NCBI GenBank assembly: GCA_009746045.1
Contig: RPFO01000231.1
Location: 1,981,840-2,045,839, forward strand
Direction: 5' to 3'
DNA length: 64,000 bases
Source: Mesostigma viride
Lineage: Eukaryota > Streptophyta > Mesostigmatophyceae > Mesostigmatales > Mesostigmataceae
Position numbers and translations under genes: made by a program. The stretch's first letter is position 1. Each line of letters opens with the position of its first letter. Below the pieces are notes generated by a model. That model was given only the letters and a program-made list of their open reading frames with translations. It was not told the origin of the DNA and did no database searches. This document shows positions 11,843 to 62,196 of this stretch, in pieces.

Positions 11843-12315
11843 AGTTAGAATGCGGTGGGATATATTGCTTGAGAACACTGTAAGCTGTGAGCAATGAATT
11901 GCTTGGTTCATTAGAAAATAGGTTTACCCTTTATCAACGTTCCTCTCACCGGCTGCGCCGCCAGTGACCGTTGGGTGCAGACCGTTGGCCCGAGGCCGCA
12001 CGATGACAGGTAGCTGCCTAGTCACTGCATCGTGCGATCACAAATCAATGCACGCTGCAGTACGGTCCCTATCTAGGATACTCTAGTACCGTCCAATGAC
12101 AGGACACTACGTATACTGGGTACTGACATCTGTCACGTACCTCAGTACCCAAAGTACCTATCTAGGGAAACGTATGCGACTCGACTAGCATCCCTATCTG
12201 CATAGCCCACGTGGTATTTATATTCACATACCAACGTGGGTTTACAAGGCTTATTCATACGTTGTATTCACAATGCCTTTGAGACTTAGTCTACAGCAAA
12301 GCATGGAGACTAACT
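11843..12315 (-). repeat. 3' LTR of element A
   Basis: 473 bases, near-identical to 19024-19495. Ends are the inverted hexamers AGTTAG and CTAACT. The next 5 bases outward (CACTG) match the other flank of the element. Just inside the LTR the minus strand has an A-rich purine stretch (AAGAAATAAATAATAAAACA) that may serve as polypurine tract, though it is not clean. Confidence 0.95.
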
Positions 12316-12689
12316 CCAGTATTGTTTTATTATTTATTTCTTAATGCAGGTCTGCACCCCCAACATTATTGTTATTGTTTTTAAGTTGATTAGGGGTACA
12401 AAAGAGACATGGCTGGTTGAGCCAGGTTGGTTACAGCTGGCTGTTCTGGCCAGGTGTTATATTGCACATTAAATAAGGTGTACACAGCTGGCTGGTTTGG
12501 CCAGGTACTGAAGCACACATTAAGTAAATGGATACAAAGCTTGTGTCCTCAAGCTGCAAATGGATACAAATCTGACCTAGCCAGCACTCACACCCCACAA
12601 CGAATGTGTTGAATTTTATGGCGCCCAGCAGCTATCGCTGTGGTAAGGGGGTGTGGTGGTTGTGTACTGTGCTATGGCCAGTCATTTAT
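12316..12689 (-). other. Element A 3' untranslated segment
   Basis: Between the RNase H stop and the 3' LTR. Contains a loose repeat of a ~60-base unit with GGCTGGTTTGGCCAGGT-like blocks (about 12408-12510). No coding sequence. Confidence 0.6.
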
Positions 12690-14917
12690 TCAAACACTGA
12701 CTCTGATATCATAGGGGTTCATGTTCTGAAAGAGGAGCTGGTACTGTTGGCCAGCAGCATCCCGCAGCTTCGTGAGAGCGTCTGCTGGGTTGTCCTCATC
12801 ATCCACATGAGTCCAGCTGGAAAAATAGGTGGCCTCCTGTTTGAGGATCACCCAATCCAGTCAGTGTGGACAGCAGCAGAAACAGATTTCTTGGTTAGAA
12901 AACTGATCACAGATTGGCTGTCAGTATAGAGATGTGAGATGACATTGCATGTGCTGCCTGCCTGGGTTTGTAGCCAGGTGAGCATGTGCTGCAGGGAACG
13001 AGCATGCAATGCAGCAGACACCACAGCACGACATTCAGCTGAGTTGCTGCTGCCAGGTTTTCTGCGGTGTAGCCTGCTGTACCAGGAAGTGAGGGACATG
13101 TAATCTGACCTGTTGGTGAGAAAAAACAGCCCTGATTCCCGTGCCCCCATCTGATTGATTGTTCTGCTCTCCATGGAGCTGTCCATGACACATTGGATGT
13201 GGATGTCTTCCATCAGATTCAGGCCATGGAGGATGAGGGGGGGACAGTCATTGACCAACTTCCTGATGTGACTGCATTTGATCTTGACTAGAACATCATG
13301 GGTGACCCTGCTGATGACAGCTAAGGGAGCCCCACAGATGGCTGACCACCACCCCAGTTTGCCCTGAACAGTGGCACACATATGTAAGGGGAGGTAGTTG
13401 TCCTGCAGCAGATCTAGACAATCTTGGATATATTCTGCAGGAGGGGAGAGAGAGCAGACCCACTGATCTGGCTGCCTATGCAGCTGCAACATGATGCCAC
13501 AGAACTGGATGGGGGTTGTGCTCAATTCCACCTGTTTGCCAATCTCATATGATTCCTGGACCTGCTGAATAAAGGTTTCCACCTCAGCTCTAGGCCCACA
13601 AATGAGTTGGTCATCTCCATGCCACACAAAGAACAGCAGTCCAGAGGGGGTGGGTACAACAAAAAAGCATGGGTCCAGGTCATCATACGTGGCCTTGAGC
13701 TTTTTGAATACTTCCTCTGCTGAGTCTCTGAAAATTTTTGGGGCACTGACAAGCCCTTCCACCCCAATGTTGATGATAAGGTGGGGCTCATCAATATAAG
13801 GTTTCCACACAGCTGGGGTGTCTACCACGTACACCTTCCCTTTCCACACAGATTCAGCCTTTTCTGGGTCCCCCCTGAGGAAGGCCCTTTTAATATCAGT
13901 GGCTTTGCAGACATAGTCTTGGCCTGCATTGAGGTTGTGGAGGAAGAGGGAGAGCATGATCCTGAGTGAGGTTTGTTGCAGCCCAGGTGTGTATGTTTCC
14001 CCTTTTGGCAGTGTGGAGGTCCCCTTTAATTCTGTGACACATGGTCTGGCATGGAAGATTGGGGAGCCCACTTTTTGTGGTTTTTGTTTGAGAACAAATT
14101 TTAATCTGAGCTTTTTGGCTCCCTCTGGCACGTCCCATGAAGGGGTGACAGGCGGTTTGTATTGAGGGTTTTTGGGGTTGGGCAGGACCCATTCCTGCCT
14201 GGCTTGGTGGACAATGGCCATCAGCCACTTGGTAAACCCTTTTTGTGTTTTGCATTCTTGTATGACGTGGGAGATTTGGTGGGGTGAGTGCATGGCTATG
14301 TCCCACTTACCCAGCCCAAAGGCTGAGGGATGGAGGAACTGGCTGTGCACTAACTTGTCCAGATCAGGGATCTCCCCTGGTGCATACTGAGTGTTGACTG
14401 CCTTGATGACAGCATCCATACCAGGGACAATACTGGAGAGAGGGATTTTAAAGTGGTCCAGAGGAACTGCACCCACCCCTGTGACACTGAGCTCATTAGC
14501 TGAGATAAGCACCCCAGGATAGGATACAAAAGGTTCCCCCAACAAGGTGTTACCAGAGTACCCCTCCACCACCTGGAAGGGTGTCTGAATACCAAGTATA
14601 GGGAGCATCACTTGTCCCACTACATCCAGTGAGCTTTGGCCTGAGAAATCCTGCACCCGTGCCCAAAATGAAGGTGCAATCTCAAGACCAGGGATGGCTT
14701 GTGCACTGATCACACTGACCTGTGCCTGAGTGTCTATTGCCAGGGTCCAGGGGTCCTGACTAGTGCACACAGCTGAGACTTTTGCCAACCCTGCGGCCAC
14801 AGCAGCTTGTTGCTTATGTGACCTGTGTAATGCTTGCAAGGCGACTGCCAATCTTGACCTCAGAGCGGGAGGGTTGGCAGACAATTTGGTGCCTTGGGGC
14901 TGAGCTAATGCTTCCAA
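12690..14917 (-). CDS. Element A protease, reverse transcriptase, RNase H
   Basis: The frame opens around 14950. A retropepsin-like domain comes first: IDTQAQVSVI (residues 61-70 from 14917) and LLGEPF (125-130). The catalytic triad D-T-G is D-T-Q. The reverse transcriptase follows: DIKRAFLRGD (341), VEGLVSAPKIF, DPCFFV, and VWHGDD (431-436) in place of the copia YVDD. RNase H blocks are MDSSMES, SWYSRL, SAECRAVV and LYTDSQSVI. The continuous frame stops at 12848; one base shift near 12860 leads into a frame containing EDNPADALTKL that ends at 12690 and aligns with the C-terminus of element B. So the pol is intact in domain content but broken at one or two sites. Confidence 0.88.
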
Positions 14918-14937
14918 CCCAGCTACCTCGTGCCTGG

Positions 14938-16520
14938 TTAAGCAATCCCCAGGTTGTGAAGTGGGCCTGGCTTCACTGAGGGTGGAAGGTTCACAGAGGG
15001 TGCTGTGGTGCTGTCAACAGCAGTAATTGGTGGCTCAGAGCTACTGCTGGGCATGCTGGAGTTGCCAGATAGAAGTAGTGAGTCCATGCTTAAAGACTCT
15101 TCCCCAGGCACGTCTGCCATGGGAGAATAATACTTCTTAATTCTATGACAGCTCACCCTGTGACGCTTCCCATTGATATTGTGCTTGACCTCCACGGTCT
15201 TGCTGTTTTTGGTAAATCCACGGATGGTAACTGGACCTAGCCAAGTTCCAACCTTACCAAAGCTGTTTTCCTTGTAATAGAGAACTTGATCACCTTTTTG
15301 GAATACTGGCCTGGAATGGGTTTTATCTTTTTCTGCCAGTTTTGCTGAGGTTTGTGCACGTGCAGTGTTGTACAGTGCTATCACCTCTGGGGGATATACA
15401 CCTGCCTGCAGGCCTGCTGGGATTACTTCACCCCACGTGGCATGCAAGACAGGTCTCATGTTTAGGGTTGTGCACATTTCATGACACCAGAGTGCCCTGT
15501 CACAATAGACCCCTGAAGTAGCATCCTTGGAAGGATTTTTGGCTAGTAGGGTTTTGACAGATCTGATGGTTCTTTCAATGACCCCCTGACCCTCATGATC
15601 TTCCAGCCCAGCAATCTCTATTGCTTCACACCCTTCCAGGTCAGTCAGACAAGAAAATTGTTGATCAAGCAAAATTCTGTCAACTGGGTAGAATCTGGGT
15701 AAAGCAATCATGAGTGCAACACGTAGCTGCCCTGCAGACATGCCAGGTAGGGGTTCCATTACTGTGAACCTGGACCATGAGTCTTTTAGGATCAGGTAGG
15801 GTTGGACATCTTTGTTGATGTGCATCACATCCCCCACTATCATGCCCCTATTGGTGGAAGGAGTTGCAGTATGCCATTTTTGAGGTTTGGGGCTATTGAA
15901 CTGACATTCTTGACAGTGTTGTCTAGCCAGTTTTACTGCATTCCTGAGTTGTTTTCCCATGCTACTACCCCCCAGCCGTCTGGCCAGTTCCTCAGCCACT
16001 GTTTCATGACCCATGGCTAGGTGCAGCTGATGAGCAAGCTCCTTGATATCTATGGAGTTGTCAACAGTAGGGGTTAGTGCTTTTATGTAAGGTTCCAGAA
16101 CAGGGTGTTGGGAGGACAGTAAGGTTGCTGCCTCAAAATCAATTATGCCCTGGTTGCCATCCCCAATGGTAATGAGATCATCATCCTCAGAGTACATAAG
16201 GTGAGTGAACTCACATTGATTTGGGTAGCGAGGCCTGTTGCAACGGCTGCCTGGAGGCCCCAGGGGATGACGTGCGTGCCAGCAGCCCGGGCAGAGATCC
16301 ACCCCGTTGGCCAGGGAGTCGTTGTTGGGGCAGTTGTGCCGTGCGTGCCCTCGTTGGAAGCACCTCAGGCACCTTATGGACCCCCCAGGGTTGCCAGGCT
16401 GGTTGTTGTTGTTGTTGTTGTTGTTTCCCTGCTGGGACCGGTTCTGGCCCTGCTGGGACCTGTTGTTGTTGTTGTTTTGGCCCTGTTGGGACCTGTTGTT
16501 ATTGTTGCCCTGCTGGGACC

Positions 16521-16554
<34 letters not shown>

Positions 16555-16575
16555 GGGGTTGCCATGCAGGGGCAC
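14938..16575 (-). CDS. Element A zinc knuckle and integrase
   Basis: 545 residues from the first start codon, though the true product is likely continuous with gag. Asn-rich runs are followed by a CCHC knuckle (C69-x2-C72-x4-H77-x4-C82). The integrase has its zinc-binding part (HQLHLAMGH then CQEC) near residues 160-210, first Asp in GDVMHINKD, second in LLDQQFSC, Glu in GQGVIER, and a C-terminal DNA-binding part with KGDQVLYYKENSFGKVGTWL. The D-E spacing (about 29 residues) is a little shorter than usual for copia. No D-T/S-G protease motif lies between knuckle and integrase, where copia normally has it. The stop at 14938 is followed by an open +1/-1 frame leading into the protease, so another frame break lies near 14950. 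Confidence 0.85.
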
Positions 16576-17777
16576 ACGGTGCCACGTGTTGCCACGCCCC
16601 TGAGAGCCACTGCCCCCTTGGTGGGAGGACTTGTGGGTCTTGGGTGCCCCCCCTGGCTGGCCTGCCCCTTGCGTTTGTGGCCTTGGACACCCTGGACCTT
16701 GGGGTCCTGGGCCTGGTTGTTGCCAGTACCCAGGGGGTCCACTGCCTCCTCGATATAGAGCATGGCAGCTCTGAAGTTGTCCCAGAGGGACTTGAGGCCT
16801 GTAAGCAGGGTAGCCAGGACAGAAGGTTGCAAATTAGCTTTTGTTAGCCAGGTGTGGATGAGATACCTTGGTTGGAGCTTGAGAAGCTCAAGGTCTTTCT
16901 CAATCATTACCCTGTATGTTTTTGCATCCCCAGAGAGGTTATTCTTGTTCACCTTATATGCAGCAAGCCAGTTGAAACGTTCTACTGCTTCCATGTGGTT
17001 ATTGGTAAGCACTAGCTGTTTCAGATCAGTGATAAAGGTAGGCCACTGTTCAATGGCTGCTTCAGGTGTCAGGGTACGTTCCTGATAGGTTTGAATCAAT
17101 GCTCTGATTGCAGGAGATGATTGATGGAATGTGGAGGAGGCCCTGAGAGCCTTAAACTGATGTCTAAGGTTAAGACCTTCCATCCCATACTCCAAAGCAA
17201 AAACAAATTGCTTAGCTTGTTCAACAGTGTGACCCTCAGGCAAGCCAGCAATATTGATTTTGGATTCCTTTTTATGAGGGTTAAACACACCTGTGAGAGG
17301 GGGGTTGGCCCTCAAGAAGCTGTCGGTTGCTTGTTGCAGGCGGGTGGGGTCCAGGTTGATGGTCCCCCGCTCATACCGCGACATCAGGGCGCGCAGGCCC
17401 TCGACAGTTTGCAGCTGGTTAGCTGTTAACTGCTGATCTTGCAACGAGGCCAGCTGGGCCTGGAGAATGGCGAGCTGTTCCAGGACATCCCCGCTCCTTG
17501 GGGGGGCCTCAGCAGGCCTGTTGGGTGCCTGTGGCACCTCTGCACCTCCCCCCAGGGCCTCCTGGGGTCCTGGCCACCCCCCCTGGTTTGGGAGGGGGCC
17601 CCAACCCACAGGGCGAACCTGGGGTGGTGGGGGAGGGGGAGGGGGGGTCATGGTGGCCCTGGGGGAGCCCGGGGGTGTCCGGGTAACCCCACTGGGTCCA
17701 GCCCCATCGGTGGAGGGGCGGGCAGGGGTGTCTGCCTCTGCTCTCCTCCTGGCCTCCTCCCGCATGAGACGCTTCAT
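16374..17777 (-). CDS. Element A gag, capsid-like frame
   Basis: 467 residues. After a Pro-rich segment there is a helical region (LEQLAILQAQLASLQDQQLT) and a capsid-like helical domain (near residues 170-345) followed by a basic Gly/Gln/Lys tail; this is the layout of copia gag. The frame ends in a run of Thr encoded by an ACA/CAA-type repeat. The same DNA read in the next frame gives Asn/Gln runs and the CCHC knuckle, so the natural product probably changes frame just before the repeat. A seven-base C run (G on the coding strand) at about 16646-16653 is the likeliest slip site, since the alternative frame looks gag-like immediately after it. Confidence 0.7.
16393..16560. repeat. (GTT)n microsatellite inside gag-pol
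   Basis: Interrupted GTT/TTG runs on the plus strand, read as Asn/Gln in the pol frame and Thr in the gag frame of element A. The runs are separated by copies of CTGCTGGGACC (read RSQQG). Length changes here are frame-neutral only in steps of three. Confidence 0.9.
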
Positions 17778-17859
17778 CTCCTTGCGTACCTCATGCTCCC
17801 GGAGGGCTGCCTGAAAGGCAGCCTCATCCTCGGGTATGTCAGGGAGTGGTCTCCCATGA

Positions 17860-19005
17860 TCATAGCAGGCCGGACTGGACAGTCCGCCTCTTTGCCCTTC
17901 CTCGCCCCAGGGCCAGCAGTCCCTCCTTGTACTGCAGGGGTTGGGGGGGAGAGGGTTTCTTGCTGGTGGTTTCCAGCGGGGGGGCTTCTTCAGCTACCAC
18001 CCCATGTTTGGCCAAGATGGCCTCCGTGACCCTGGCTTGGGTGATGGAGGACATGGTTTTAAAGTGTGCTGACCGAGCAAGCTCGGCCAGGTCTTGACTG
18101 TCCGCATAGTCCATGGGATAGTCAGCATTTTTTAAGAGGTCACGTAACCGCTGGGTGGCCTCGCGGTACGCGTCCGCCATCGCCTGGTGGGTAGCCAGGC
18201 GACGGGCGGCTTCCTCTTCATATTCTTGCCGCTTAGCGGCGAGCCGAAAAGCCGCCTCTCGGCGGACCTCTCGGTCCCGCTGCCGCGCTCGGCGTTCTTC
18301 ATTTGCCACCAGCGCGGCCTGCTCGACCGCCAGGAGCGCTGGGGTAAGATTGATCTCAGTCTCCCCATCGGGGAGACTGGCAGTGTCGGATACCTCATCG
18401 TCGGACATTGGTTGTCCGGCGATGGGTTCCACAGGTTTTCGCACCACCCGTGCGAGTTTAATACTCTCCATGTCCTTCTTCTTGCGAAGAAGGGACGCAG
18501 AGGGTCGCCCAAACGTTAGCTCAATGTGGTTATGTCCCTGGGCGAAAGGGACATTAAGGTTTGATGTGGCGGGACGAAAGGTAATCGTCCCGTCCGGTGC
18601 CACCGAGGCCGTCTGACGGGGCATACGCTCCCGAAGAGATGGCAACGTGGGGCCGGACTGTGGAGCCTCAGTGGGGTTTACCACCGAGGTCTCCGCAGCC
18701 ATGGCCGCGCCAGCCGTGGTTGCGGCTGGGGCGGCCGCCGGAGTCGAGGGTAAGCCGGTCTCCCCGGGGGGAGCCGTCTCGGCCTCCGGCCTCGCAGGGG
18801 AGGGGGGTAGGTCGGTCGGCTTTGCAGCCGCCGTCCCCTCGTCCTGGCAACCATTGTGAGTCTTTTTGTTCTTTTTCTTTTTCTTGGAAATGGCCGCATC
18901 GCCAGCCGGCTTCTTGTTGTTGTCTCTGGGCATCCGCCGATCCTGCCCATCATCATCCTCGTTGTAGGTAAGCTTCTTAGCGACATTCTTGTTCGTGATA
19001 GCCAT
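17860..19005 (-). CDS. Element A gag, first frame
   Basis: 381 residues from ATG at 19005. Rich in Ala, Pro, Arg and Glu: a basic N-terminus with a KKKKKNKK run, then a charged helical stretch near residues 210-300 (many Arg/Glu, likely coiled coil). I see no conserved enzymatic motif; the position directly behind the 5' LTR identifies it as the gag start. The frame ends near 17860, while the frame that encodes PDIPEDEAAFQAALREHE continues into the second gag frame, so one frame shift lies near 17870-17900. That shift may be a mutation, a programmed shift, or an assembly error. Confidence 0.7.
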   Translation of the reverse strand: MAITNKNVAKKLTYNEDDDGQDRRMPRDNNKKPAGDAAISKKKKKNKKTHNGCQDEGTAAAKPTDLPPSPARPEAETAPPGETGLPSTPAAAPAATTAGAAMAAETSVVNPTEAPQSGPTLPSLRERMPRQTASVAPDGTITFRPATSNLNVPFAQGHNHIELTFGRPSASLLRKKKDMESIKLARVVRKPVEPIAGQPMSDDEVSDTASLPDGETEINLTPALLAVEQAALVANEERRARQRDREVRREAAFRLAAKRQEYEEEAARRLATHQAMADAYREATQRLRDLLKNADYPMDYADSQDLAELARSAHFKTMSSITQARVTEAILAKHGVVAEEAPPLETTSKKPSPPQPLQYKEGLLALGRGRAKRRTVQSGLL

Positions 19006-19023
19006 GGTAGCAAATAAAATTCA

Positions 19024-19495
19024 AGTTAGAATGCGGTGGGATATATTGCTTGAGAACACTGAAGCTGTGAGCAATGAATTGCTTGGTTCATTAGAAAATA
19101 GGTTTACCCTTTATCAACGTTCCTCTCACCGGCTGCGCCGCCAGTGACCGTTGGGTGCAGACCGTTGGCCCGAGGCCGCACGATGACAGGTAGCTGCCTA
19201 GTCACTGCATCGTGCGATCACAAATCAATGCACGCTGCAGTACGGTCCCTATCTAGGATACTCTAGTACCGTCCAATGACAGGACACTACGTATACTGGG
19301 TACTGACATCTGTCACGTACCTCAGTACCCAAAGTACCTATCTAGGGAAACGTATGCGACTCGACTAGCATCCCTATCTGCATAGCCCACGTGGTATTTA
19401 TATTCACATACCAACGTGGGTTTACAAGGCTTATTCATACGTTGTATTCACAATGCCTTTGAGACTTAGTCTACAGCAAAGCATGGAGACTAACT
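19024..19495 (-). repeat. 5' LTR of element A
   Basis: 472 bases, matching 11843-12315 apart from one missing T. As the 5' LTR on the minus strand it should carry the element promoter; the gag ATG (19005) is only 18 bases downstream of its inner end, so the leader is very short. I do not recognise a tRNA primer-binding site there. Confidence 0.95.
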
Positions 19496-19500
19496 CACTG

Positions 19501-20526: not shown

Positions 20527-20682
20527 GTCGCGTTTGCGTGCAACTATCTCCGGCATCACTATATGTCCTGGCCATTCAGCTTTTGGGAACCCCAGGTGAG
20601 CGATAAAGATGAGATGCCTGGCCTGGTCCCATGCACATGCAGCTGCCACATCTTTGGGAGACGTAGGTCACTGCCATATGTA

Positions 20683-21362
20683 TCAACTCCCCCCCTCGCT
20701 CGCGACCGGCCCCATCACGAAGACAGCGATCGTACCAAGACAAGGGCAGCGGTGACCGCAGTCAAGCTGCGGGAGGTAAACTGCGCAGCGGTGCACACTG
20801 GACAAAACCAATCCCCCGCTCCGGAATGCTGGTGACCACTGGCTGCAAACACTGCATGTGCCAACCACAGTTACACTGATCACACAATAACATGGACTCC
20901 GCCTGATCGACCCGGTGACAAACCTGACACTGGGCGTCCTTGACTCGGCGAGACGTGTGGGGGTGTAGTTCATGGACCAAGTTGGGCAGCGAGCAGGGAC
21001 TGAGATTGCTGAGGTTGTCAGTCGTACGGCTCCCGTCGGCGCCCTCCAAAATTGCCACTCCCGATGGTTTGATAGCCACAATGCGCAAAATGTTGGGCCC
21101 CGCCTCCACATCCAAAATGTTCTTCAGCTGAGTGCGCAGGAAAACATACTGCCCTGGCCTAAACCGCAGCTGGCGAGCCATGTATGCGCCCCCCCGGCGC
21201 TGAGCGTAGCGCAGGGAGTCCCTACGCTGAGCAATGAACAAGTTGTTCATCGCGATGGGCATGACCTTCTTAAAAGTCTCTGCCCTGGCCAGCACCTCAA
21301 CCAAAAATTGCTGAGCGTTGTCGAAGGCCATGGGTTCGGGGTGCGCAACCTGTGGTTTCATG
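20683..21362 (-). pseudogene. Gypsy-type integrase C-terminus with PHD finger
   Basis: The minus-strand frame (21418-20762) encodes inside the insertion an integrase C-terminal part: NNLFIAQRRDSLRYAQRRGG, then RFRPGQYVFLRTQL and a small beta-type segment (ILRIVAIKPSGVAIL), typical of the region after the catalytic core. It is followed by CQVC-x8-LLCDQC-x4-H-x2-C, a PHD finger (about 20835-20905). Integrase plus PHD finger is known from some algal retrotransposons. No catalytic core, RT or LTR is present, so it is a fragment. Relative to the empty site at about 11261-11272 the inserted DNA lies between TGTATCAA and TAAAGAATGAG. Confidence 0.7.
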
Positions 21363-21835
21363 TAAAGAATGAGCAGACGCTTACCATGCGTCGCTCTAGA
21401 CCCCCGTTGATTGGCCACGAATTAACTGACCATCTAAGGACGCCTATTGAGATGTATCCCTCTGCTCTAGAAACTGATAGCATCGTGACTTGTCTCATGA
21501 ATAAATAAGATGGTTCACAGCTGCAACTTGAATTGCACTTTTTAATTAATTATATTGGTAGTCGACCTTGTACAATCACATCCGCAATTGTGTTGCCCAC
21601 GACAGTCTGAGGACGAACACACCCTACTACACAAGGAAACGGATGTCAACAAGCCTTGCCTCAAGATGTGAGGACAAACGAAGGCTCGACATGAAGGTAC
21701 ATGAAAGAGACTACACGCTGCCGGTGTCTCTTTCCCACACATGTAGTCAAGCCCACACGAGTCACCAAAGCAACACACGCTTGACACACGCTTGTCAGAA
21801 CACGATAAACGTTTGTCGTGATTCCTGACACAACA

Positions 21836-23365
21836 ATCGGGGTTCTTTGAACGGAGTTTCTTCTATACGTGAATGCGGGAACAAGAGGCCGCTGATTGAG
21901 CGGCTTATAGGTCGTAGTGTTTTCTCGTAGCTGTTTGGCTAGAGCTTTTGTGATTAGTAGATGCAGTATAGTGCATGGTTGAAAGATGAATTAAATAAAA
22001 TGTGCGTTCCGCGCTTGGGTTGATTATACCCGGGCGGAATGGGGCGTGAGGTGCAGTGCCCCTGAAAAGAACAACCTACGCATTATTTAATACTAGCCGT
22101 GCAGATTCGGGATATTCTACCCCCGGTCTGTACGGTTAGCGTCTTACTAGCATCACTGAACATAAGGGTTTAATGACGTCAGTTAGCTAGGGATAAGGGA
22201 GGTTTTGCGACTAAAAGCCGCTGAGCTGGCTGGTTTTGTCGGCCTCTTTCTTTGCTCGTTGTCGTTGCGGCGGCAGCCGCAGCTATGGGTGCTGCGGAGC
22301 AAAATCCCAAAAGCACTGGTTGCACTGGCCACTTGGCCAGTGGTGAGACTTCCAGTTGTTAACCGGCCAGGCGTAGTTCCTCGCCCGGTTAACTAAAAGA
22401 AAAGAAAATGAAGCACCCCGGGTCTATGGGGAGACGGCCATAGCGGTACCGACTCGGGGCCCCGAGAGGGGTCATGATAGGCTGGCAGTGCGCAATCGCA
22501 GTGCAAATGCGCTGGGCCTTTTTGGGCCTGGCCATGCATCCACAGCCGCCGGGCACACGCCTCCCGATGTGGGGGGGCTCCCGTTTTGCGGCAGGGCGGT
22601 CACTTGTGACAACGAGCAAGGTGGAGTGCGGCTTCAAGGGAAAGCCAGGGCGGGGGTGATTGGGCAACGTACTTCATGAAGGGCCTTGAACGGCGTGCCT
22701 CCGGGCATGTCAATAGTGTCACATTTATGCTTCCACTTATTGTTTTAATGAAGATGCTGGTTTTTGTGGGAGCTACGTGGGACATGAATCGGGGTTCTTT
22801 GAACGGAGTTTCTTCTATACGTGAATGCGGGGACAAGAGGCCGCTGATTGAGCGGCTTATAGGTCGTAGTGTTTTCTCGTAGCTGTTTGGCTAGAGCTTT
22901 TGTGATTAGTAGATGCAGTATAGTGCATGGTTGAAAAATGAATTAAATAAAATGTGCGTTCCGCGCTTGGGTTGATTATACCCGGGCGGAACGGGGCGTG
23001 AGGTGCAGTGCCCCTGAAAAGAACAACCTACGCATTATTTAATACTAGCCGTGCAGATTCGGGATATTCTACCCCCGGTCTGTACGGTTAGGGTCTTACT
23101 AGCATCACTGAACATAAGGGTTTAATGACGTCAGTTAGCTAGGGATAAGGGAGGTTTTGCGACTAAAAGCCGCTCTGGCTGGTTTTGTCGGCCTCTTTCT
23201 TTGCTCCCCACCCACCCACCCTTGTCTTGGTTGCCTCTAGGGCAACGTACTTCATGAAGGGCCTTGAACGGCGTGCCTCCGGGCATGTCAATAGTGTCAC
23301 ATTTATGCTTCCACTTATTGTTTGAATGAAGATGCTGGTTTTTGTGGGAGCTACGTGGGACATGA
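21836..23365. mobile_element. Two-unit tandem insertion element
   Basis: Two direct units, 21836-22787 (952 bases) and 22788-23365 (578 bases), both begin ATCGGGGTTCTTTGAACGG and end GTGGGACATGA. They share ~420 bases at the start and ~125 at the end; unit 2 has 33 unrelated bases where unit 1 has ~408. Compared with the empty site near 11738 at most 2 bases (AA) are duplicated. No coding frame is convincing. It could be LTR-like ends around a tiny internal part, or a tandem non-autonomous element. Confidence 0.6.
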
Positions 23366-23428
23366 AAACCGCATTCCAGAAATGCCGTCCTGACATTTTC
23401 ACCACACATAAGAGCATCTAAAAACTTC

Positions 23429-25911: not shown

Positions 25912-26044
25912 CTCCCCTAGGGCAGCGTGCGGCTGCCTAGATAGATGTTGTAGTTAGAATGTTGTTAGATAGATGTAGTATGTAGCCAATGTAGATAGAT
26001 TAGACCGGTAGGAATGTTTGCACCAATCCATCCATCCATCGGGG

Positions 26045-35934: not shown

Positions 35935-43567
<7,633 letters not shown>

Positions 43568-50871: not shown

Positions 50872-50990
50872 TGGATGATGCCTTCAGCATTTAGCCAAGC
50901 CATGCCTATAATGGGACCTCCCATGGATGTTGCATGCATTAAGAATTTAGCCATGCTATGTCTATGCAGAGAGACGCTCTCTGTTGAGAA

Positions 50991-52727: not shown

Positions 52728-54133
52728 TCCAGCCTCAGCTACCCATGAGTGCTCTAGCTCTGTTTGGGAGAACTTCCACTAAAGGAGGTACTCGCGGCGG
52801 CGGCCTCGATTGCGGTGGGCTACAATGTCCTCCACCTCATCCTCGGGTTCGCCCGTCTCGGGGTTGAACTCCAAGGGGGCGGGTGCCATGACCGTACGAC
52901 CTGGGAAGGTGCTCTTGCGGTAAAGCTTAGCTGGTCAACGTGGAAAACATTGGACTTCAGCTGCCACGAGTCCGGGATGGCGACAGACACCATCACCTCA
53001 TTGAACACCTTCTCCACCAGATACGGTCCAAGGAATAAGGGGCGGAGCTTGACCATCAGGCTGTCCTCGAACTTGTGCGAGAAGCGGCCTTGGTGGGGGC
53101 CCTCAATTAAAACCAAGTCACCTGCTTCGATTGCAGGGGTGCGCCCGTCCAGGGTACCTTGGACTCGCGCCATGTATACTTGGCACGCGCCTGACGTAGG
53201 CCACTTATGGCGCTGGAATGAGCTTGCACCATCCGTTGTACCAGCTCCCGCGCCCCTGCGACTGTGGAGCGTAGCTCCGTTGTCGTGGTGATAGTTAGCA
53301 TATTGGGGCACCAATGTGCTAGATGGATGCAGGTTGAGGAGACCTTTCCAACGCCGTGTCAACCGCCTAGAACAGACATTAAGGGACTAGAAAGATATCA
53401 AGTCCCGAAGTACTGCCGACCGGTGGCCGAGGGCGGTGCACTCTCAGGGCATAGTGGACAGGACACGTGGCAGGCCGTGCCTGCACAGGCTTAGCCTGAG
53501 CTCTCACGTGACTGGGACACAGTGTACTGAGGACGCAACGGTCCTGTGGCTAGTAGAAGCCAGTAGCCAGCCAGCAGGTCTGCAAGGATGTAAGTCCATG
53601 CAGGACTGTGGCAGGTCCTGTGCTGTCCTAGACACAGGATAGCCAGAGATTCATGTATGCTGCCTGCAACAAGGATGCAGGGCAGCGATACGAGGCTCTG
53701 GCAATGTAGCGTTGCCCAGCGTTGCTCATGACCGAGGAACAAGGATGGAACGAGGTTGCATATAGCTCGAGGCTCAACGAGGCAACGAGCGTCTTCACAC
53801 ACGAACCTTGGTCGTCACGACGAGTGGCGAGCCTATCGAGGGTCGTAGGCCTGGTGTGAGGATAAAGGTTGCTAGCCAGCAGCCTAGGGTCATTCCAGCC
53901 GGCAAGGACCAGGAGCTCACAAGCTCTGCTGACGATCGAGTTGCTGCGCAAATGTGATGGCTGGGGCGGTCAAGAGATCGGTGGGAGTAAGGGGATGCCT
54001 GCCTGTATCAAGAAAGAACGGGGTATACCCGTGGGCAGAATGGGGTGCATTATTGAGCGAAAACTCAATGAATCCCAGCACTTCGTCCCAATTCTTCCCG
54101 TCTCGATCCAGGTAGTGCCGCAGTGCCTCTTCC
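52728..54133 (-). pseudogene. Gypsy chromovirus integrase and chromodomain remnant
   Basis: Read on the minus strand: end of an integrase core at 54133-53959 (LRHYLDRDGKNWDEVLGFIE, NNAPHSAHGYTPFFLDTGRH), then after the solo LTR ELRSTVAGARELVQ, GDLVLIEGPHQGRFSHKF, LRPLFLGPYLVEKV and SNVFHVDQLS (about 53280-52940), the usual C-terminal integrase domain of Ty3/gypsy. Further on, in another frame, EVEDIVAHRNRGRRREYLL, an in-frame stop, and WKFSQTELEHSWVAEAGL (about 52860-52740) form a degenerate chromodomain. The rest of pol is missing because element B begins at 54134. Dead remnant of a chromovirus. Confidence 0.8.
53293..53953 (+). mobile_element. Solo LTR related to element B
   Basis: 661 bases, diverged but collinear with the LTR at 54134-54785, starting AGTTAGCATATTGGGGCACC. 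It is flanked by GTGAT at 53288-53292 and 53954-53958. Removing it with one GTGAT restores an open integrase frame across the site on the minus strand, which confirms a clean insertion followed by LTR-LTR loss of the internal part. Confidence 0.85.
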
Positions 54134-54785
54134 AGTTAGCATTTTGGGCAACCAATATGCTAAGTGGATGCAGTTTGGAAAGACCTTTCCAACGCCGTGC
54201 TGACCGCCTGAAACAGACAAGGGACGAGAAAGATATCAAGTCCCGAAGTTCTAGCCGTCCGTGGCCGACTAGGGTGCAGTCCTCTGGTGTAGTGGACAGG
54301 ACACGTGGCAGGCCGTGCCTGCACAGGCTTAGCCTGTCTATCACGTGACTGTGGTCCACGTAGACCAGGAGGAGCAGCAGCCTGCAACTAGTAGGGTACC
54401 GGAGCTGGCACAGGGCTGCAAGGATACTAGGCCTTGCAGGCTTGTGACAGGTCCTGTACTTCCTAGGTTGCAGAGTCTAGGCAAATCCAGTTCGTCCTGG
54501 CTCTGCACTGATGCCAGTGGACGTTGAGGATTTGCTTGCACGCCTGCACGTGCCTCGTCACGCCGATGGGAACGAGGAACAACGCAAGGATATAGCTTGG
54601 TCATGGGGGATGACCAGCTATCTCGGAAAGCACGAACCGTGGGTGCCACCTTCACTAAATGGTCGTGGAAGTGCCCATTGTGGTCGTGGCCTGGTGAACA
54701 GATTTAAGGTTGCTGCCTTGCAACATTGGCTAAGACGCGCTGTGAAAGACCAAGAGCTCACACTCGTGGGGAGCTCTTTCTAACT
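54134..54785 (+). repeat. 5' LTR of element B
   Basis: 652 bases, starts AGTTAGCATTTTGGGC and ends TTTCTAACT. First ~530 bases match 61655-62196. The last part has counterparts in the solo LTR at 53293-53953, which supports the full length. The gag ATG lies 25 bases downstream. Confidence 0.88.
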
Positions 54786-54810
54786 CGTATTATTGTCTCC
54801 TTACTTCTTC

Positions 54811-55668
54811 ATGTCCAACGTGCCGAGGGAACAGGCCATTGAGCCTTCGCAGCTGGATTTGGCGCGGGAGGCACTGGGCCAGATTGTGGCCATTGGACTG
54901 GGAGCAGCGCGACTGTTCAACCATCAGGTGGCAACGTCTGTGCTGGGCGCGGGAGTTGAAGTCCCGGACGTGATCAGGCAAGCGCAGGCGCGCGAAGTCG
55001 ACAACCCTTGGTCGTCGGCGGAGGTGGTTTCACAAACGTGCGAACACCTCGTGAACATTCTTTTGCAGGAGTCACGGGGTAACGCAGACCGGTGGGTGAT
55101 AACCACACGACCATTTGGGATTTGGTCAACACTCGACACACCGCGGGCGGCGGAACCAGACGCACACGATCCAGTGGTCGAGGTCATCACGGGTCGGGAG
55201 GTAACGCCAGAAGACTTCCATTACCAATTCGTTGATCAGCCAGAGGGGATCATCGAACGTTCATCTCAGCAGATAGATCAAGGCGACGGTACCACAGAAG
55301 GGTACGCTGCACGACGTCGTGCTGAGCTGCACGTCCCGCAAGAGCCCGAACACGACTACGGTGGTCGTGGGGCTTGCAACGACAAGCGGGGTGGTGGAAC
55401 GCGGTGGGTGAGGAACCTTGAGTGGGATCGCTCGAGTGGGAGCGAGCCCCGGATCCCAGTGGAGAAGTCTGCAGACGGGCGACCCGTTAGCAGAGTGTTT
55501 GGACCCTACGCCGACGGGGAGGACGCCGCTGGCAGCGACGAGGAGCGGCCAGAGACGCCCATCGCAGCCACTGCTCAAGAGCGAGAGCTGGAGGCAGCGA
55601 ACCAAGCAGGTGCTGAGTCAGTAGCTGGGACGGTGCCCACGGCATCCCCCAGCGACGCCAGTGCTTGA
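54811..55668 (+). CDS. Element B first gag-region protein
   Basis: 285 residues from ATG at 54811 (the frame opens slightly upstream without ATG). N-terminus MSNVPREQAIEPSQLDLARE; helical first half, a central Gly/Arg-rich part, and an Ala/Glu/Ser-rich tail. I do not recognise a domain. Its place right behind the 5' LTR and before the capsid-like frame suggests a gag N-terminal part comparable with the 381-residue frame of element A, although the sequences are not obviously similar. It ends 53 bases before the next ATG. Confidence 0.6.
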   Translation: MSNVPREQAIEPSQLDLAREALGQIVAIGLGAARLFNHQVATSVLGAGVEVPDVIRQAQAREVDNPWSSAEVVSQTCEHLVNILLQESRGNADRWVITTRPFGIWSTLDTPRAAEPDAHDPVVEVITGREVTPEDFHYQFVDQPEGIIERSSQQIDQGDGTTEGYAARRRAELHVPQEPEHDYGGRGACNDKRGGGTRWVRNLEWDRSSGSEPRIPVEKSADGRPVSRVFGPYADGEDAAGSDEERPETPIAATAQERELEAANQAGAESVAGTVPTASPSDASA

Positions 55669-55721
55669 GTCAGTTCTTCCTTTTTCCTTCGCCTTTATTG
55701 TTGTGTCCCCACTTGTATATA

Positions 55722-57074
55722 ATGCCTCGTGGCAAACCGGGCGACGGCGACAAGGGCGAGGAGGGGGCACCGGCTGGAGAGAGCCAGGAGCCTGGGAAGG
55801 GCAAGGAGGCGCTGGTGGGAGAGGCGATCCCAGCCAGCGACGGCGATGGGGGAAAGCGACCAGGGAGCAAGAGGCGACACGAAGACTCGGTGGAGGAGGC
55901 GCGCAAGGCGCGGGCGCTGGGGGCATCTGATGCAATAACGGTGGCGAATGGGCAACCTGCCGTGGAGAAGCGTAAGAGGGACCCCTCTGCTGACGGCAAT
56001 GGTAAGAGGCCTCATGTGGATGTGCTCTCCCCTGTGCCTGCTGGACCAAGTGGTGCTGTTGTTGTGACACCCGCTGTGGTGGAGCCAGTGAAGGCGCTGC
56101 CAGGGTCGAGACCTCACATGAGTGCTGTCACTGTTATGAATGGACAAAAGCCTCTTAACCCACCACTAGCACAGGAAGCTTTGGACAAGTGGCTAGAGGA
56201 CATGGAGCTTGTTGTGTTCTCCGTGGACCCCACTGTCAACCTAGTGCAAGTGTTTCACTCGTCCACGTGCAACAGGGACTCGTCAGAGCGTGTCAGGGAG
56301 AAGGCTAGGACTGCTGTCAAGGATAAGCTAACCTGGGCACAGTTCCTGGAAGGGTTGAGGGAGAGTTCTCTGACAAGGTTCTCAACCTCACCAACTACTA
56401 CAAGCACAGTATGACACCTTTGAGATAGTGGGCCCTGTGGCAGAGGAATGGGCTAGGCTCAACCGTATCAGGGACAAGGGGGCCAAGTATGGCTTCCTGG
56501 TCACAGATAGGGCCTTGGCAGACTATTTCCTGGACCGTATGGGTTTGAGTGTGGATGGGAGGAACGGTGCCCGCATGTTTCTTAACCAGACTGATGGCTC
56601 CTTGCGTGCTCTGGAGCTTGTAATCCTCAGCATAAGGAAGCCAGATCCTGCCTGCAAGGCTATCCAGTCCCATGGCAGCAATGCCACCTCCGCTGTGCAG
56701 GGCCAAGGTGATGTCCCCGGGTACCCAGCCCGTGATGGGGCAAGGCCCAACAAGCGTAAGCGCTTCAGGCGCCAGAGGCAGGGGCTCAGGGTGGCAAGGG
56801 TGCAGGTCCCCAAGGAGGGGTTGGGGGCCAGCAAGCTGGTGGTCAGCAGGGTAAGGGTGGCCAAGGGCAAGGCAAGGGCCAAGCTCAAGGCAACCAGGGC
56901 AAGCAGGGTGGGCAGCCTCAGGGAGGCCAGGGGAAGCCTGGCAAGGGTGGGGCTGGGTCTGGGAAGAAGGGTGGAGCATGTTTTGTGTGTGGCAAGGAAG
57001 GTCACTGGCGTCGTGAGTGTCCTGACAGGAAGGCCAAGCCTGCTGGGGCGGGAGGCCAGTCTGGGCAGCAGTGA
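55722..57074 (+). CDS. Element B gag with CCHC knuckle (frame-shifted)
   Basis: ATG 55722 opens MPRGKPGDGDKGEEGAPAGE; Lys/Arg-rich N-terminus with KRPGSKRRHE and KRKRDP (nuclear-signal-like), then a capsid-like helical part (ALDKWLEDMELVVFSVDPTV). The frame stops at 56414; one base earlier or later it continues as EEWARLNRIRDKGAKYGFLV and DYFLDRMGLSV. A further shift near 56780 leads to the Gly/Gln-rich tail and CFVCGKEGHWRRECPDRK, a C-x2-C-x4-H-x4-C knuckle, ending at TGA 57074. So two shifts break gag. Confidence 0.7.
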
Positions 57075-57122
57075 CTAGATACATCATCCCCTGTAAATAG
57101 TCAATCACCCCTTGGGGAAGGT

Positions 57123-59197
57123 GTGCTGGATGTACATAAGGACGGGGGTGTGCCCCTTGTGCAGCACCAAGGGTGTAAAGATGTTGTTCTTCCACTGGAT
57201 TGCAATAACAATGCTGCAGCTGAATACCCTATGCCTCATGCAGGTGGTGGGTCTCCAGCACGTGCTGGCCTGGAGGGCCAAGGGACCTTGCTGGAAGGGC
57301 CTGGAGCGGTCCAGGGTGCAGGGCCTGACTTGGGGCGTCAGGACGGCCTGCAGGGAAGCCCTGGAACCTCAGGAGTGGATCATGTGTCCCCACACACGGT
57401 TCAGACGTCTCGCCAGGTCAGTACTGACAGAGTGCTGAGCTATGCTGAGGCTGGCCATAGGTTGCATCACATATGTTTGGGCATTCTGGGCAGGCAGCAA
57501 TGTTTGCTTGGAAGCTAGGTAGGGAGCCTTTGTGGGAAGCTTGCCAGGCTGCTGCTGAGAACTGTGGTTGCCAGGAGAATGCTGTCCACCCACCTCAGTC
57601 CCATGCTAGGGAGCCTGCTAGGGAGCGTGGCGACATCCAGATGGATATCCAGCATATAAGGGGCTTGTATATATTGGTGGGGGTGGACAGGTTCAGCAGA
57701 TATAGGCTGATAGACGTTCTGCCTGGTATGCAGGAGCACCACTTGTTGTTGGGTATGAAGGCCCTGATCCCAGGCTTTGGGGTGTGCAAGAGTGTGCAGG
57801 CAGACTTGCAGTTTGACTGTTTGCTCAAGCATCAGGACCAGCTGCCTTGTAAGCTGGTAGTAGTCCCCAGGGAGAGTCATGGGCAGCAAGGGGCTGTAGA
57901 GAGATCCATACGTGAAGTGAAGACAGTGGTGCTAGCAGCAGAGTCAGTGCCACTTGTGGCATCTGCCTTAGAGAGGGCAGCCTGGTGTAAGGGGATAGAA
58001 GAGCAGCTGAACCACAGGGTTAACTATTACTTTGATGGTGTGGCTGTCTCTCCCCTGGCCCTGCAGTATAGCTTGTTGCCTGAGAACGTGGTGCAGGCCA
58101 GTCTTAGGAAGGCAGATAGGTTATTTGCCCAGCTGAGACGTAAGGACAAGAACTGGAATGTGCTGAGGCCTCAGGTGGGGCTGAAGGTCAGGATGTGGAA
58201 GGAACCATCTATTCCAGGCAAGCGGGGGAAGTGGCAGGATGGGGTTGTCACTCGTGTGGAGGAAGCTAACAGATCTTGCCTGGTGGCTTTGGAAAAGGAT
58301 CCAAGGCACGTGTACAGGTTGTCCTGGGCTCATGTCAAGGAAAGAAGGCCACATGCAATCTGGCCTGCAGACGGGCCAGGCCCTCCCAGCTGGGTTGAGG
58401 AGCCAGGCCAGAGCCAGGCAGCAGCAGCTAACAATCCTCTGGTGGTGGATGATGGTCTGTCCCTGCTGGAAGATGACGAGCAGGAGGAGGCTGCTGAAGC
58501 AACTGTCACAAGGCCAGAGGGGACGGGGCAGCCACCTAAGGCCCGGGGGCCTCTCATGGCGGACGTCATCCGAGCACTCATGCGCAGCAAACATGATCCC
58601 AAGGTATCCAAGCTCACGGGGTGGGGGTCGTGCTGGGCAGCTACAATGGAGGTAGATACCAACTCACAGGTGTCTGTCATCAGGGAAGAGGATGCTGTAG
58701 GCTTACAGATGTCCCATCCCAGTTGCCTTGCTGTGTCTGATTTCTCAGGAAAGGTGTCCATGAAGATCCTTGGGGAAGTGAGTGTGCCTATCTTAGGGGT
58801 GCCCACCACGTTCTGTGTGGTAGAGGGCTATCAGGGGCCTGCCATTCTGGGTCAGAACTTCTTGTGCATGCCAGGGGTTACTTTGACCTCTGATGAGTTG
58901 GCACTAGAAGGCAGGGGCAGCCTCCCCCTTGAAAGATATCACTATTCCCAGGGTCTTGCAGTGGCGGTGAAGGCTGTTAGGAGTCAGCCAGCTGAGGGTC
59001 CTCAAGGTCAGGAGCCCATAGCTGAGGACCTGTTGATAATCCCAACCACCTTTGATCCAAGGCAGTTAGGGGTAAACAGGTACCAGATAGCTGCTCACAG
59101 TCCTATTCCCTGGCGCCAGCTAGTCGAGATGATGCAAGCCCCAAGATGGCTAAGGCATGGACTCTTGGCTTTGTTGCTTCTGGGCATGAGTGGATAG
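57123..59197 (+). CDS. Element B integrase and protease
   Basis: A lead-in frame (57123-57518) with EAGHRLHHI joins by a shift near 57470 to the main frame 57473-59197. Zinc part: H-x-x-H/MFGH ... CGCQ; catalytic residues D58 (MDIQHI), D111 (ADLQFD) and E143 (GAVERS), numbered from 57473; C-terminal part with VGLKVRMWKEPS. An acidic linker (near 325-345) follows, then the protease: MEVDTNSQVSVI (392-403) and AILGQNFL about 60 residues later. The D-T-G triad is D-T-N. The frame ends at 59197 after a shift near 59140 into the RT frame. Integrase before protease is the reverse of normal copia order. Confidence 0.85.
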
Positions 59198-60648
59198 TTT
59201 CCAACTGTGCAGAACCTGTGGATGAGCTGCCAGAAGTTCACCAGCTGCTCAGATTGATGTTTGTCCTCAAGCTCAAGGAGGTAGATGGTGTCCAGGTGCC
59301 ACATGTCAGACCAGTTGTAACCGAGTATCATGGCACTGGCCAGTTGTTAGATGAGGAGCTCTATACTCCAGGGATGCTGCATGACACGTGGAGGATTCTG
59401 CTGTGTATATTTCTGTCTTTTCTGGTTAAGGGTGTGCCCTATAGCTCTGTGCTGATTGATTTCAAGAGGGCTTTTCTCAAGGGTGACCAAGATCAGGCTA
59501 GGCAGACTTGGAGAGATATCCCTCCTTTCTTTGTGACTGTACCTGCTGTATGGAGAGCAGAGATAAAGGCCAGGTACCTGAGAATTCTGAAAGGGTTGGA
59601 AGGTCTCAGGTCCAGTCCCATTATCTGGAGAAAGAGCCTAGAGAAATTCTTGAAGAATACTTGTGGGTTTTCTGTGTCTCCAGTGGATCCCTGTTTGTTC
59701 CAAGGGTCCCACAATGGCCTTCCTGTCTTTGCCTCACTGCATGGTGATGACCTGCATCTCATAGGTCCACCAGACTGGGTTGAGGCTGTCTTGGCTAAGA
59801 TCCAGAAGCGGTTTGAGCTGGGTAAGATACAGCACATGGTGGAGAATGAGCCTATGGTCTTCTGTGGCATGCAGGCTACGTTGTTCCAAGCCAAGGGCTC
59901 GTGGTTCATCAGGATGGAGGGTGGTAAGGACTACCCACAGCAGATTGTAGATGCATTGCAGGAGCCCATCACGCAGGCTAGGTGTGCTACCATCAGGGGC
60001 ATGCTGGCATGGCTTGCAAGTATATGTGCCCCTGACTTGCTGGTTCTGAGTCGACTTACTGATTCCCAGCTGGTTGAGGTGGGTGCTGAGAGTGTGGTGC
60101 AGGCTGTCATGATGTCTCCCCCTCTCATACTGGGTCCTGTGGATTTGTACAAGCCCCTTGACATGGTTCTCTATGTGGACAGTTCTATGGATAATAGGAA
60201 GGTCACAGAGGTCAGGGGCAGGGCAGCAGCATTAGTTACCCTGGAGCAAGATCACACCTCACTTGTTACCTGGTACAGTCGGTTGCAGAACAGGGTTACA
60301 CCCAGCAGTGATATTGCTGAGTGCAGGGCAATCTGTGAAGGGCTGCATACTGCTCTTTACTTGAGGGAGCTCTTCTACCAGCTATGTCAAGTGGCTTCCT
60401 GTAGGTTGCAGCTGCACACACTGGTGAGGACTGATAGCATGGGCATGGTGCAATTTGTGCACAGGCAGCTGGCCAGGAGCAGGGACCTTGACTACTTGTT
60501 GCTCAAGGAGATGTCCTACCTAGCTCACATTGAACATGTGCCTGGTGTGGACAACCCTGCAGATGCCCTCACCAAGCTGGAGGAGAAGGCGGAGAGGCAG
60601 TACCCCCTGCTCCGTGGGCTCATGGACCCCTTACACGGGCGGCCATAG
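59146..60648 (+). CDS. Element B reverse transcriptase and RNase H
   Basis: 500 residues. RT blocks: VLIDFKRAFLKGD (103-114), LEGLRSSPIIWRKSLEKF, VDPCLF (180-185), SLHGDDLHLIGP (197-208) where copia has YVDD, and MVFCGM. RNase H blocks: LYVDSSMDNRKV, VTWYSRLQNRV, IAECRAICEGLH, LVRTDSMGMVQF, and the tail DNPADALTKLEEKAERQYPL. Intact as a frame, unlike the homologous part of element A, which has a shift before the DNPADALTKL block. The 5' part of RT is in the previous frame. Confidence 0.88.
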   Translation: MAKAWTLGFVASGHEWIVSNCAEPVDELPEVHQLLRLMFVLKLKEVDGVQVPHVRPVVTEYHGTGQLLDEELYTPGMLHDTWRILLCIFLSFLVKGVPYSSVLIDFKRAFLKGDQDQARQTWRDIPPFFVTVPAVWRAEIKARYLRILKGLEGLRSSPIIWRKSLEKFLKNTCGFSVSPVDPCLFQGSHNGLPVFASLHGDDLHLIGPPDWVEAVLAKIQKRFELGKIQHMVENEPMVFCGMQATLFQAKGSWFIRMEGGKDYPQQIVDALQEPITQARCATIRGMLAWLASICAPDLLVLSRLTDSQLVEVGAESVVQAVMMSPPLILGPVDLYKPLDMVLYVDSSMDNRKVTEVRGRAAALVTLEQDHTSLVTWYSRLQNRVTPSSDIAECRAICEGLHTALYLRELFYQLCQVASCRLQLHTLVRTDSMGMVQFVHRQLARSRDLDYLLLKEMSYLAHIEHVPGVDNPADALTKLEEKAERQYPLLRGLMDPLHGRP

Positions 60649-61654
60649 AGACCAGGCCTTGCTTCAGCTTGGGTGTCCCCAGTGGGCTGCTTGACCAAAG
60701 TACCAAGTGGTGACTGGTGCTTACTGGTTGACAGCCGGTCCTTCAGGGTTAGGTACACCCTCCTGGACAGGAGTTGGTGTGGAATGTCACTCCTACCAGC
60801 TGAGAATCATGCCTGGCCCTCCCCATGGGGTTCAGAAGAGTCGCCAGGACTTAAGTCGACGCCTTTGGCCTCAAACAGTTAGGCCATGCAAGGGCAACCC
60901 GAATGCTGGTTCTTACAGGTTGCTGTATATATGTTTTCTAGTGCTTGTTTCCAACCTGTTGCTAATAAAGAACCTGGTTGTGTGACCATGTGGAACATGG
61001 TTGCCAGGGAGCCACATTCTGGGTTATATAATGCTTGAATAAAACATAATCATGTCATCTCTCATGTTGTTTCATGGTTGTAATGTTTCTCTTGTGTAAA
61101 GTTCCAGGTCACCTATAAACCTGGAGGTTGGGGTGGGGTTCAATTCCCCAGCAGAGCCACAGCCTGGCATGAGTGATTCCTGGGCTTAACACCCAGTGAA
61201 GACATGGGCTCCCCAATAAGGCAGTATTTGTATAGGTGCTACCTGAGTCTCTTTGAGCATAAAAGGGAAAGGCTGGCCAAGGCGGGCGCCATAAGAACGG
61301 GCGCCTGTGATAACTGTGAAAGATCAGGAACTCACAATAATACGTTCTTGGCATCCTTTAATCCCAGCCATTGGACTAGGTAATGTGCCTTGACTTTAAT
61401 CTAACACCAAGTTCCCAAGGAAAGGTTGGGAGCTGACCAAGGGGTCAGGGGATAACCTGGGGTGACCTCTGATTCACTGGCCAGTACACCTAGCCTGGTC
61501 CAAGGGCGTATATGTTGTTACCCAAAAGGAGGCAGGACCCTGGGCCCTATCAGGTCTGATCAACCCAAGGGACCAAGCGGTCTGTGGCTGAGTGGGCACA
61601 AGCAAGGTTAGGCTTGTTTCAAGCTGGTCCAGCTCCAAAAGAAGAAAGGGTTGG
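60649..61654 (+). other. Element B 3' untranslated region
   Basis: About 1 kb without a coding frame. AATAAA-like words at 60964 and 61039 might act in polyadenylation. It ends in the purine tract AAAAGAAGAAAGGG (about 61637-61650) next to the LTR. Confidence 0.6.
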
Positions 61655-62196
61655 AGTTAGCATTTTGGGCAACCAATATGCTAAGTGGATGCAGTTTGGA
61701 AAGACCTTTCCAACGCCGTGCTGACCGCCTGAAACAGACAAGGGACGAGAAAGATATCAAGTCCCGAAGTCCTAGCCGTCCGTGGCCGACTAGGGTGCAG
61801 TCCTCTGGTGTAGTGGACAGGACACGTGGCAGGCCGTGCCTGCACAGGCTTAGCCTGTCTATCACGTGACTGTGGTCCACGTAGACCAGGAGGAGCAGCA
61901 GCCTGTGACTGGTAGGGTACGGAGCTGGCACAGGGCTGCAAGGATACTAGGCCTTGCAGGCTTGTGACAGGTCCTGTACTTCCTAGGTTGCAGAGTCTAG
62001 GCAAATCCAGTTCGTCCTGGCTCTGCACTGATGCCAGTGGACGTTGAGGATTTGCTTGCACGCCTGCACGTGCCTCGTCACGCCGATGGGAACGAGGAAC
62101 AACGCAAGGATATAGCTTGGTCATGGGGGATGACCAGCTATCTCGGAAAGCACGAACCGTGGGTGCCACCTTGGTCGTGGAAGTGCCCATTGTGCA
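61655..62196 (+). repeat. 3' LTR of element B, truncated
   Basis: 542 bases matching the start of the 5' LTR; similarity stops after GTGCCCATTGTG. The missing end means no target duplication can be tested. Confidence 0.88.

Follow-up and report, generated by a model that had tools for sequence, protein, structure and literature searches.

A stretch of 64,000 nucleotides from the streptophyte Mesostigma viride (contig RPFO01000231.1 of GenBank assembly GCA_009746045.1, forward-strand positions 1,981,840 to 2,045,839; hereafter the window) carries two retrotransposons flanked by long terminal repeats (LTRs), i.e. element A (11843-19495, minus strand) and element B (54134-62194, plus strand). 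In both, a CCHC zinc knuckle is followed by integrase (INT), a protease-like domain (PR), reverse transcriptase (RT) and RNase H (RH). The order INT-PR-RT-RH is real and is common to at least three strongly diverged families of the M. viride genome. It matches neither PR-RT-RH-INT of Ty3/Gypsy nor PR-INT-RT-RH of Ty1/Copia, with which it shares the placing of INT upstream of RT. These elements are probably a Copia-related LTR lineage that has lost the Copia protease and carries a different protease of clan AA between INT and RT. Classification of LTR retrotransposons routinely uses the order of pol domains, and the success of a lineage that has reached high copy numbers with its protease behind the integrase shows that the place of the protease, and perhaps its origin, can change.

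Domain order in three element families

Both window copies are broken over several frames. The order knuckle-INT-PR-RT-RH had been proposed for them in a reading of the sequence alone (hereafter the sequence-only reading) and was confirmed by motifs, alignment and profiles. Alignment of the A and B integrases showed that the zinc-binding histidine and cysteines and the catalytic D, D and E residues are present. In element A, the GH motif of the zinc part starts at 16011, its C..C motif lies near 15915 and the core motifs GDVMHI, LLDQQF and VIERTIR start at 15834, 15672 and 15582; in element B, the GH motif starts at 57479 and MDIQHI, QADLQF and AVERSIR at 57641, 57797 and 57893. The PR aspartate codon occupies 14734-14732 in A (IDTQAQVSVI ... 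LLGEPF) and 58655-58657 in B (VDTNSQVSVI ... ILGQNF), the codon starts agreeing with those given in the sequence-only reading, and the HGDD motif of RT starts at 13621 and 59740, respectively.

Further copies were sought in the M. viride genome (439,911,974 bases, 2243 contigs). Only the best candidates were scored, so that match counts are lower bounds, and the frames of loci other than those read are known by length alone (open reading frame (ORF) length only was used for L001-L003, L007, L008, L046 and L048-L052, and L044 was left aside). Family A has at least 62 matches (62 scored of 8077 first-look candidates), and 33 of the 62 listed have an open frame that reaches 1270 aa or more. One family A copy that was read, L043, holds a gag-like stretch, CCHC, INT, PR, RT and RH in a single 1767-aa frame. 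A motif check of the best 30 of the 62 matches to the window frame, window copy included, found the order INT, PR, RT, RH in 30 of 30 loci; INT and PR lay in different frames in 27 of these and in the same frame in three. Family B is represented by at least 81 matches, with an open frame of 1183-1190 aa in 11 of those listed, and the copy read (L053) contains INT-PR-RT-RH in a single 1190-aa frame. The order also occurs in a third family, C, marked by P0011, a Mesostigma protein from EukProt that matches several genomic sites with 100% identity over 699 residues. At least 71 matches were found for this family, some of them pieces of one copy, and a 1249-aa frame occurred in 13. Two family C loci that were read (L045 and L047) show INT-PR-RT-RH, and the reading included a copy with the whole order in one open frame; a separate 423-aa frame with CCHC motifs at its end (L054) lies just upstream in this family. 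A fourth member, P0010, has a gene model that begins within the protease and runs into RT with no INT between; the model covers no INT and so gives no INT position. Open frames spanning the order measured 1190-1767 aa in the copies read.

The three families are only distantly similar. Identities by blastp were 34% over 1190 columns for A and C, 32% over 1140 for A and B, and 34% over 685 columns and 28% over 327 for B and C; by block they amounted to 33-46% in the INT core, 23-27% in the INT C-terminal part, 37-40% in RT and 35-38% in RH. The claim that an order shared by diverged elements does not reflect chance extends from two elements to three families with single-frame copies, and the genome scan proposed with it showed the order kept in the copies checked.

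Frame-broken subfamilies have also spread. The 27 family A loci with INT and PR in different frames have the window copy's INT/PR frame change. In family B, 20 of the 81 rows coincide with the 530-aa frame of the window copy down to the first residue, which suggests that they have the PR/RT frame break of that copy as well. This spread could be due to recoding or to intact copies that mobilise the broken ones. In the family C copy L047 the integrase reads GLIDRHISSVK, with Asp as the third catalytic residue versus Glu in A and B.

The presence of a second protease upstream of INT was examined using hmmsearch --max with profiles for PR (the new type and the canonical Copia type) and for INT (both types) over 912 six-frame ORFs from window elements A and B and from L009-L012, L043, L047, L053 and L054. 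RVT_2 elements are numerous in this genome (at least 150; 150 scored of 1981 candidates), and the four that were checked for order, L009-L012, are canonical with PR first (L009-L011 by Pfam, L012 by profile). The new PR profile was built from the new PR domains and is therefore circular on identity, not on place; it gave one match each, after INT, in window A, window B, L043, L047 and L053. Positions in L043 were 652-821 for the new INT profile and 1071-1181 for the new PR profile, with the same order in L047 and L053. The Copia protease profile found all four canonical controls, before INT, of which only L012 stood outside the profile, and it had no match in any new element at E<1. No second protease was thus detected upstream of INT in the new elements with either PR profile in the six-frame ORFs. 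As the Copia profile matches the controls and not the new elements, the place upstream of INT where a protease is expected shows none within the reach of these profiles, in agreement with the earlier statement that no protease motif lies between knuckle and integrase.

Relationship to Ty1/Copia elements

RVT_2 was the sole RT family matched (E 3.5e-5 to 1.9e-4, under the Pfam cut-off), and RVT_1 gave no match at E<=10 in the element ORFs. Profile comparison with hhalign linked the new RT to Copia RT at E 1.4e-15; the new INT was linked to Copia INT at E 1e-5 and to the INT of the proteins P0012 and P0014 at E 1.2e-9. As the domains of the new elements score under Pfam cut-offs, profile-based surveys may overlook such elements. 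An RT-RH tree of 12 rows placed A, B, C and P0010 in one clade with support of 100/100 on a branch of 1.88 changes per site. This tree is unrooted and holds Copia-type sequences only, with no Gypsy or BEL sequence and no outgroup, and therefore fits a clade inside Copia and a sister of Copia alike. L004 and L005 (near-copies), L012 (RT start not found by the anchor) and P0015 were omitted, and for P0013 the program gave a long-branch warning. In the label-shuffle test, 68 of 500 shuffles reached a grouping as good as that of the new clade, and the support for the clade is for this reason taken from the branch values and not from the shuffle test. Together, these sequence comparisons support a distinct Copia-related clade marked by the order INT-PR-RT-RH.

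Three protein searches for relatives, with 8000 candidates scored in each, returned P0010 and P0011, both from Mesostigma, as close relatives and the Copia-type proteins P0012-P0016 as distant ones; a search of IMG/VR returned no relatives of the new elements. The integrases of P0012 and P0014 are similar to the new INT, but these two proteins have their own RT-RH clade. Pfam finds no protease in these two Copia-like proteins, and the stretch ahead of their integrase is, by eye, presumably cytosine-methyltransferase-like.

Likeness to Ty1/Copia comprises a Copia-type RT and RH, INT upstream of RT, LTRs, the CCHC knuckle and, in element A, a 5-bp target duplication. Differences are a protease that follows INT and is not recognisably Copia-type, HGDD in RT versus HVDD in the canonical L009-L011, and element ends of AGTTAG...CTAACT versus TG...CA. 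The diatom CoDi lineages are likewise algal Copia-type elements, but their reported pol order is PR, IN, RT, RH (PMC2806351); they were compared by this published description only. The nearest precedent for a changed pol order is Gmr1 of Ty3/Gypsy (PMC2774666), in which INT occupies a Copia-like place within a Gypsy element, whereas here the protease is displaced in a Copia-related one. Troyka was proposed as a new superfamily from unusual termini and an independent RT branch (PMC12440569) and differs from the new elements in its RP-RT-RH-IN order, 3-bp target duplications and animal hosts. No report of an INT-PR-RT order appeared among the papers listed in searches of the open PMC library, which covered neither Repbase nor subscription papers, and the word 'copia' is absent from the main text of one of the two Mesostigma genome papers (PMC6947507).

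Identity and origin of the protease-like domain

Across the families the core motif of PR is DT[QNM][AS].VS[VI] and the closing motif [LI][LI]G..F, the hydrophobic-hydrophobic-Gly feature being present as LLGEPF in A and P0010, ILGQNF in B and LIGNPF in C. Identity in PR is 33-48% among A, B and C as compared to 19-28% in the linkers beside it, and the domain was accepted because this identity is kept in three families between such linkers with the key motifs retained. When the A and B pieces were searched alone, gag-asp_proteas was the sole Pfam family (E 0.15 for A, 0.046 for B). A retropepsin pattern of our own matched the pol proteins of families A and C; among 20,000 shuffled versions of each of A, B and C, it matched none. 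Element B itself escaped the pattern because its residue -2 is Glu. PR is on these grounds likely to be a retropepsin-like protease, and the Asp-Thr pair, the strong conservation and the near-identical copies argue for its being active.

Several results weigh against this identification or against an independent origin. The active-site triad is DTQ (A), DTN (B) or DTM (C) and not D[ST]G, and Gly is nearly universal at the third triad position in clan AA; the DSA of the canonical L009 and L010, without that Gly, indicates some tolerance at the position. No retropepsin family reaches the Pfam cut-off (best E 0.046), and P0010 and P0011 match no Pfam family at all. Four aligned PR pieces yielded gag-asp_proteas for two of the four (best E 0.051) and SPT16 for one (E 0.4). 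A PDB sequence search with PR matched no solved protease, and the structure predicted from four sequences was poor (pLDDT 38), and no fold search was made with it. The profile comparison of PR took in Copia proteases and no Gypsy protease, and a domain as short and fast-evolving as a protease may just have lost its recognisable similarity by divergence. The sole PDB match to PR, an aminotransferase (E 0.74 and 0.38), was taken as chance. Of two findings that the sequence-only reading had named as fatal to it, a retropepsin match upstream of INT did not appear, while the lack of a significant downstream match does hold if the Pfam values for the A and B pieces are taken literally.

The sequence-only reading had described the Copia protease as moved, and this part was not upheld. 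A relocation of the Copia protease itself downstream of the integrase, followed by divergence, would be in keeping with the Copia-like RT, INT and RH and has a precedent in the changed order of Gmr1 (PMC2774666); it is nevertheless improbable, as the comparison of the new PR with Copia PR reached E 0.37, within the range of unrelated domain pairs (0.15-0.7), and the PR motif differs from the DSAASSH (L009, L010) and DTGATYH (L011) of Copia proteases in the same genome. Replacement fits better than a move because RT and INT link to Copia and PR does not, and because PR weakly resembles gag-asp proteases. An unlikely, if somewhat less improbable, alternative is that PR keeps a retropepsin-like fold without protease function, processing then falling to a host protease or scarcely taking place. 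The replacement of the DTG/DSG glycine by Q, N or M in all three families where it is readable speaks for such a loss; against it, Asp-Thr is constant in the three families while the third position varies, PR is about as conserved as RT, families A, B and C have spread as near-identical copies, and the canonical L009 and L010 likewise lack the triad Gly.

That the group is a separate LTR superfamily rather than part of Copia, comparable to Troyka for elements once placed under Gypsy, is possible but on the unlikely side. The long branch to other Copia-type RT-RH sequences, an RVT_2 score below cut-off, the unusual ends and the changed order all point that way. RVT_2 as the sole RT family with no RVT_1 match, the Copia RT profile match and the position of INT before RT, as in Copia, point the other way, and RT was compared with Copia-type sequences only. 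The further proposal that this would be a superfamily beside Copia, so far only from Mesostigma viride, in which the ancestral protease was lost and a clan AA protease of independent origin was taken up between INT and RT, its active site functioning in the absence of the DTG glycine, is doubtful. An assembly or nested-insertion artefact that fused pieces of different elements might be suspected from the broken frames of the window copies and from the position of A, which has repeats of another sequence on both sides; the dispersed matches, which number in the dozens, the existence of three families and the unbroken frames in the copies read leave it next to no probability, and it was rejected on this copy evidence.

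Under the favoured replacement, a Copia-type protease would have been lost and another retropepsin-type domain gained between INT and RT. In LTR elements, Gag-Pol assembles into particles, and the protease dimerises and excises itself. By analogy, Gag-Pol of the new elements would assemble and PR would dimerise and cut itself out, a release that would free the upstream INT and the downstream RT-RH and would leave the Gag-INT boundary without an adjoining protease of its own. The lineage offers a natural test of how strongly Gag-Pol processing depends on where the protease lies and on the glycine of DTG.

Anatomy of the elements and other features of the window

The LTRs are 99.8% identical in element A (by blastn) and 97.6% in element B, and the 5' LTR begins with AGTTAG in both. 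Element A has the ends AGTTAG...CTAACT, not the TG...CA of Ty1/Copia, and is flanked by a 5-bp target duplication, CAGTG; no target duplication was found for element B with ends at 54134 and 62194. No primer binding site adjoining the 5' LTR was recognised on inspection by eye. The RH frame of element A ends short of the C-terminal tail that is present in L043.

Table 1. Coordinates of the features of elements A and B in the window
Feature	Position	Strand	Evidence
Element A 3' LTR	11843..12316	-	blastn LTR pair; ends CTAACT, then CAGTG
Element A 5' LTR	19024..19495	-	blastn LTR pair; begins AGTTAG
Target site duplication CAGTG, one side of A	11838..11842	.	read from sequence
Target site duplication CAGTG, other side of A	19496..19500	.	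read from sequence
Element A first ORF, gag N-terminal part by position	17863..19020	-	
Element A second gag frame, by position	16377..17993	-	
Element A CCHC knuckle CX2CX4HX4C	16330..16371	-	motif scan; Pfam zf-CCHC_3 E 0.005, below cut-off
Element A integrase, zinc part and DDE core	15529..16038	-	alignment, motifs, profile
Element A integrase C-terminal part	15121..15528, limits approximate	-	aligned with B and C
Element A retropepsin-like domain	14450..14782	-	profile; Pfam gag-asp_proteas E 0.15 and 0.2
Element A reverse transcriptase, RVT_2-like	13334..14146, limits approximate	-	Pfam RVT_2 E 4.2e-5, below cut-off
Element A RNase H	12851..13207, limits approximate	-	
Element B 5' LTR	54134..54682	+	97.6% identical to 61655-62194
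Element B 3' LTR	61655..62194	+	LTR pair comparison
Element B purine-rich tract 5' of 3' LTR	61635..61654	+	read from sequence
Element B CCHC knuckle CFVCGKEGHWRREC	56979..57020	+	motif scan
Element B integrase	57470..57946	+	alignment, profile; Pfam rve E 0.065 and 0.03, below cut-off
Element B retropepsin-like domain	58601..58939	+	profile; Pfam gag-asp_proteas E 0.11 and 0.046
Element B reverse transcriptase	59227..60015, limits approximate	+	Pfam RVT_2 E 3.5e-5, below cut-off
Element B RNase H with ADALTK tail	60172..60645, limits approximate	+	

Repeats at 11262-11740 and 21355-21836, 96.7% identical, lie on either side of element A, as if it had inserted into another, shorter LTR-like element. 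Near element B, 118 bases at 53381-53498 are 84% identical to part of its LTRs and are perhaps the remnant LTR of a related element.

Elsewhere in the window, ORFs at 24611-25705 and 32299-33333 match RVT_1 (E 2.9e-16 and 2.4e-5) and belong to another type of retroelement. A fucosyltransferase domain (Glyco_transf_10, E 3.4e-28) is encoded at 26292-28139 on the minus strand, where a host gene is likely from this match, and an ORF at 1-2882, also on the minus strand, matches DUF7869 (E 3.9e-14). Minisatellites of 42 and 14 bases occur at 6198-7483, within and beside a 900-aa ORF. A 300-base direct repeat (21830-22129 and 22782-23081) is 98% identical, with its copies 952 bases apart. Long arrays of 8-base and 28-base repeats occupy 40084-42579, and the segment 40001-42000 has a high GC content (0.727) and a strong asymmetry between the strands.

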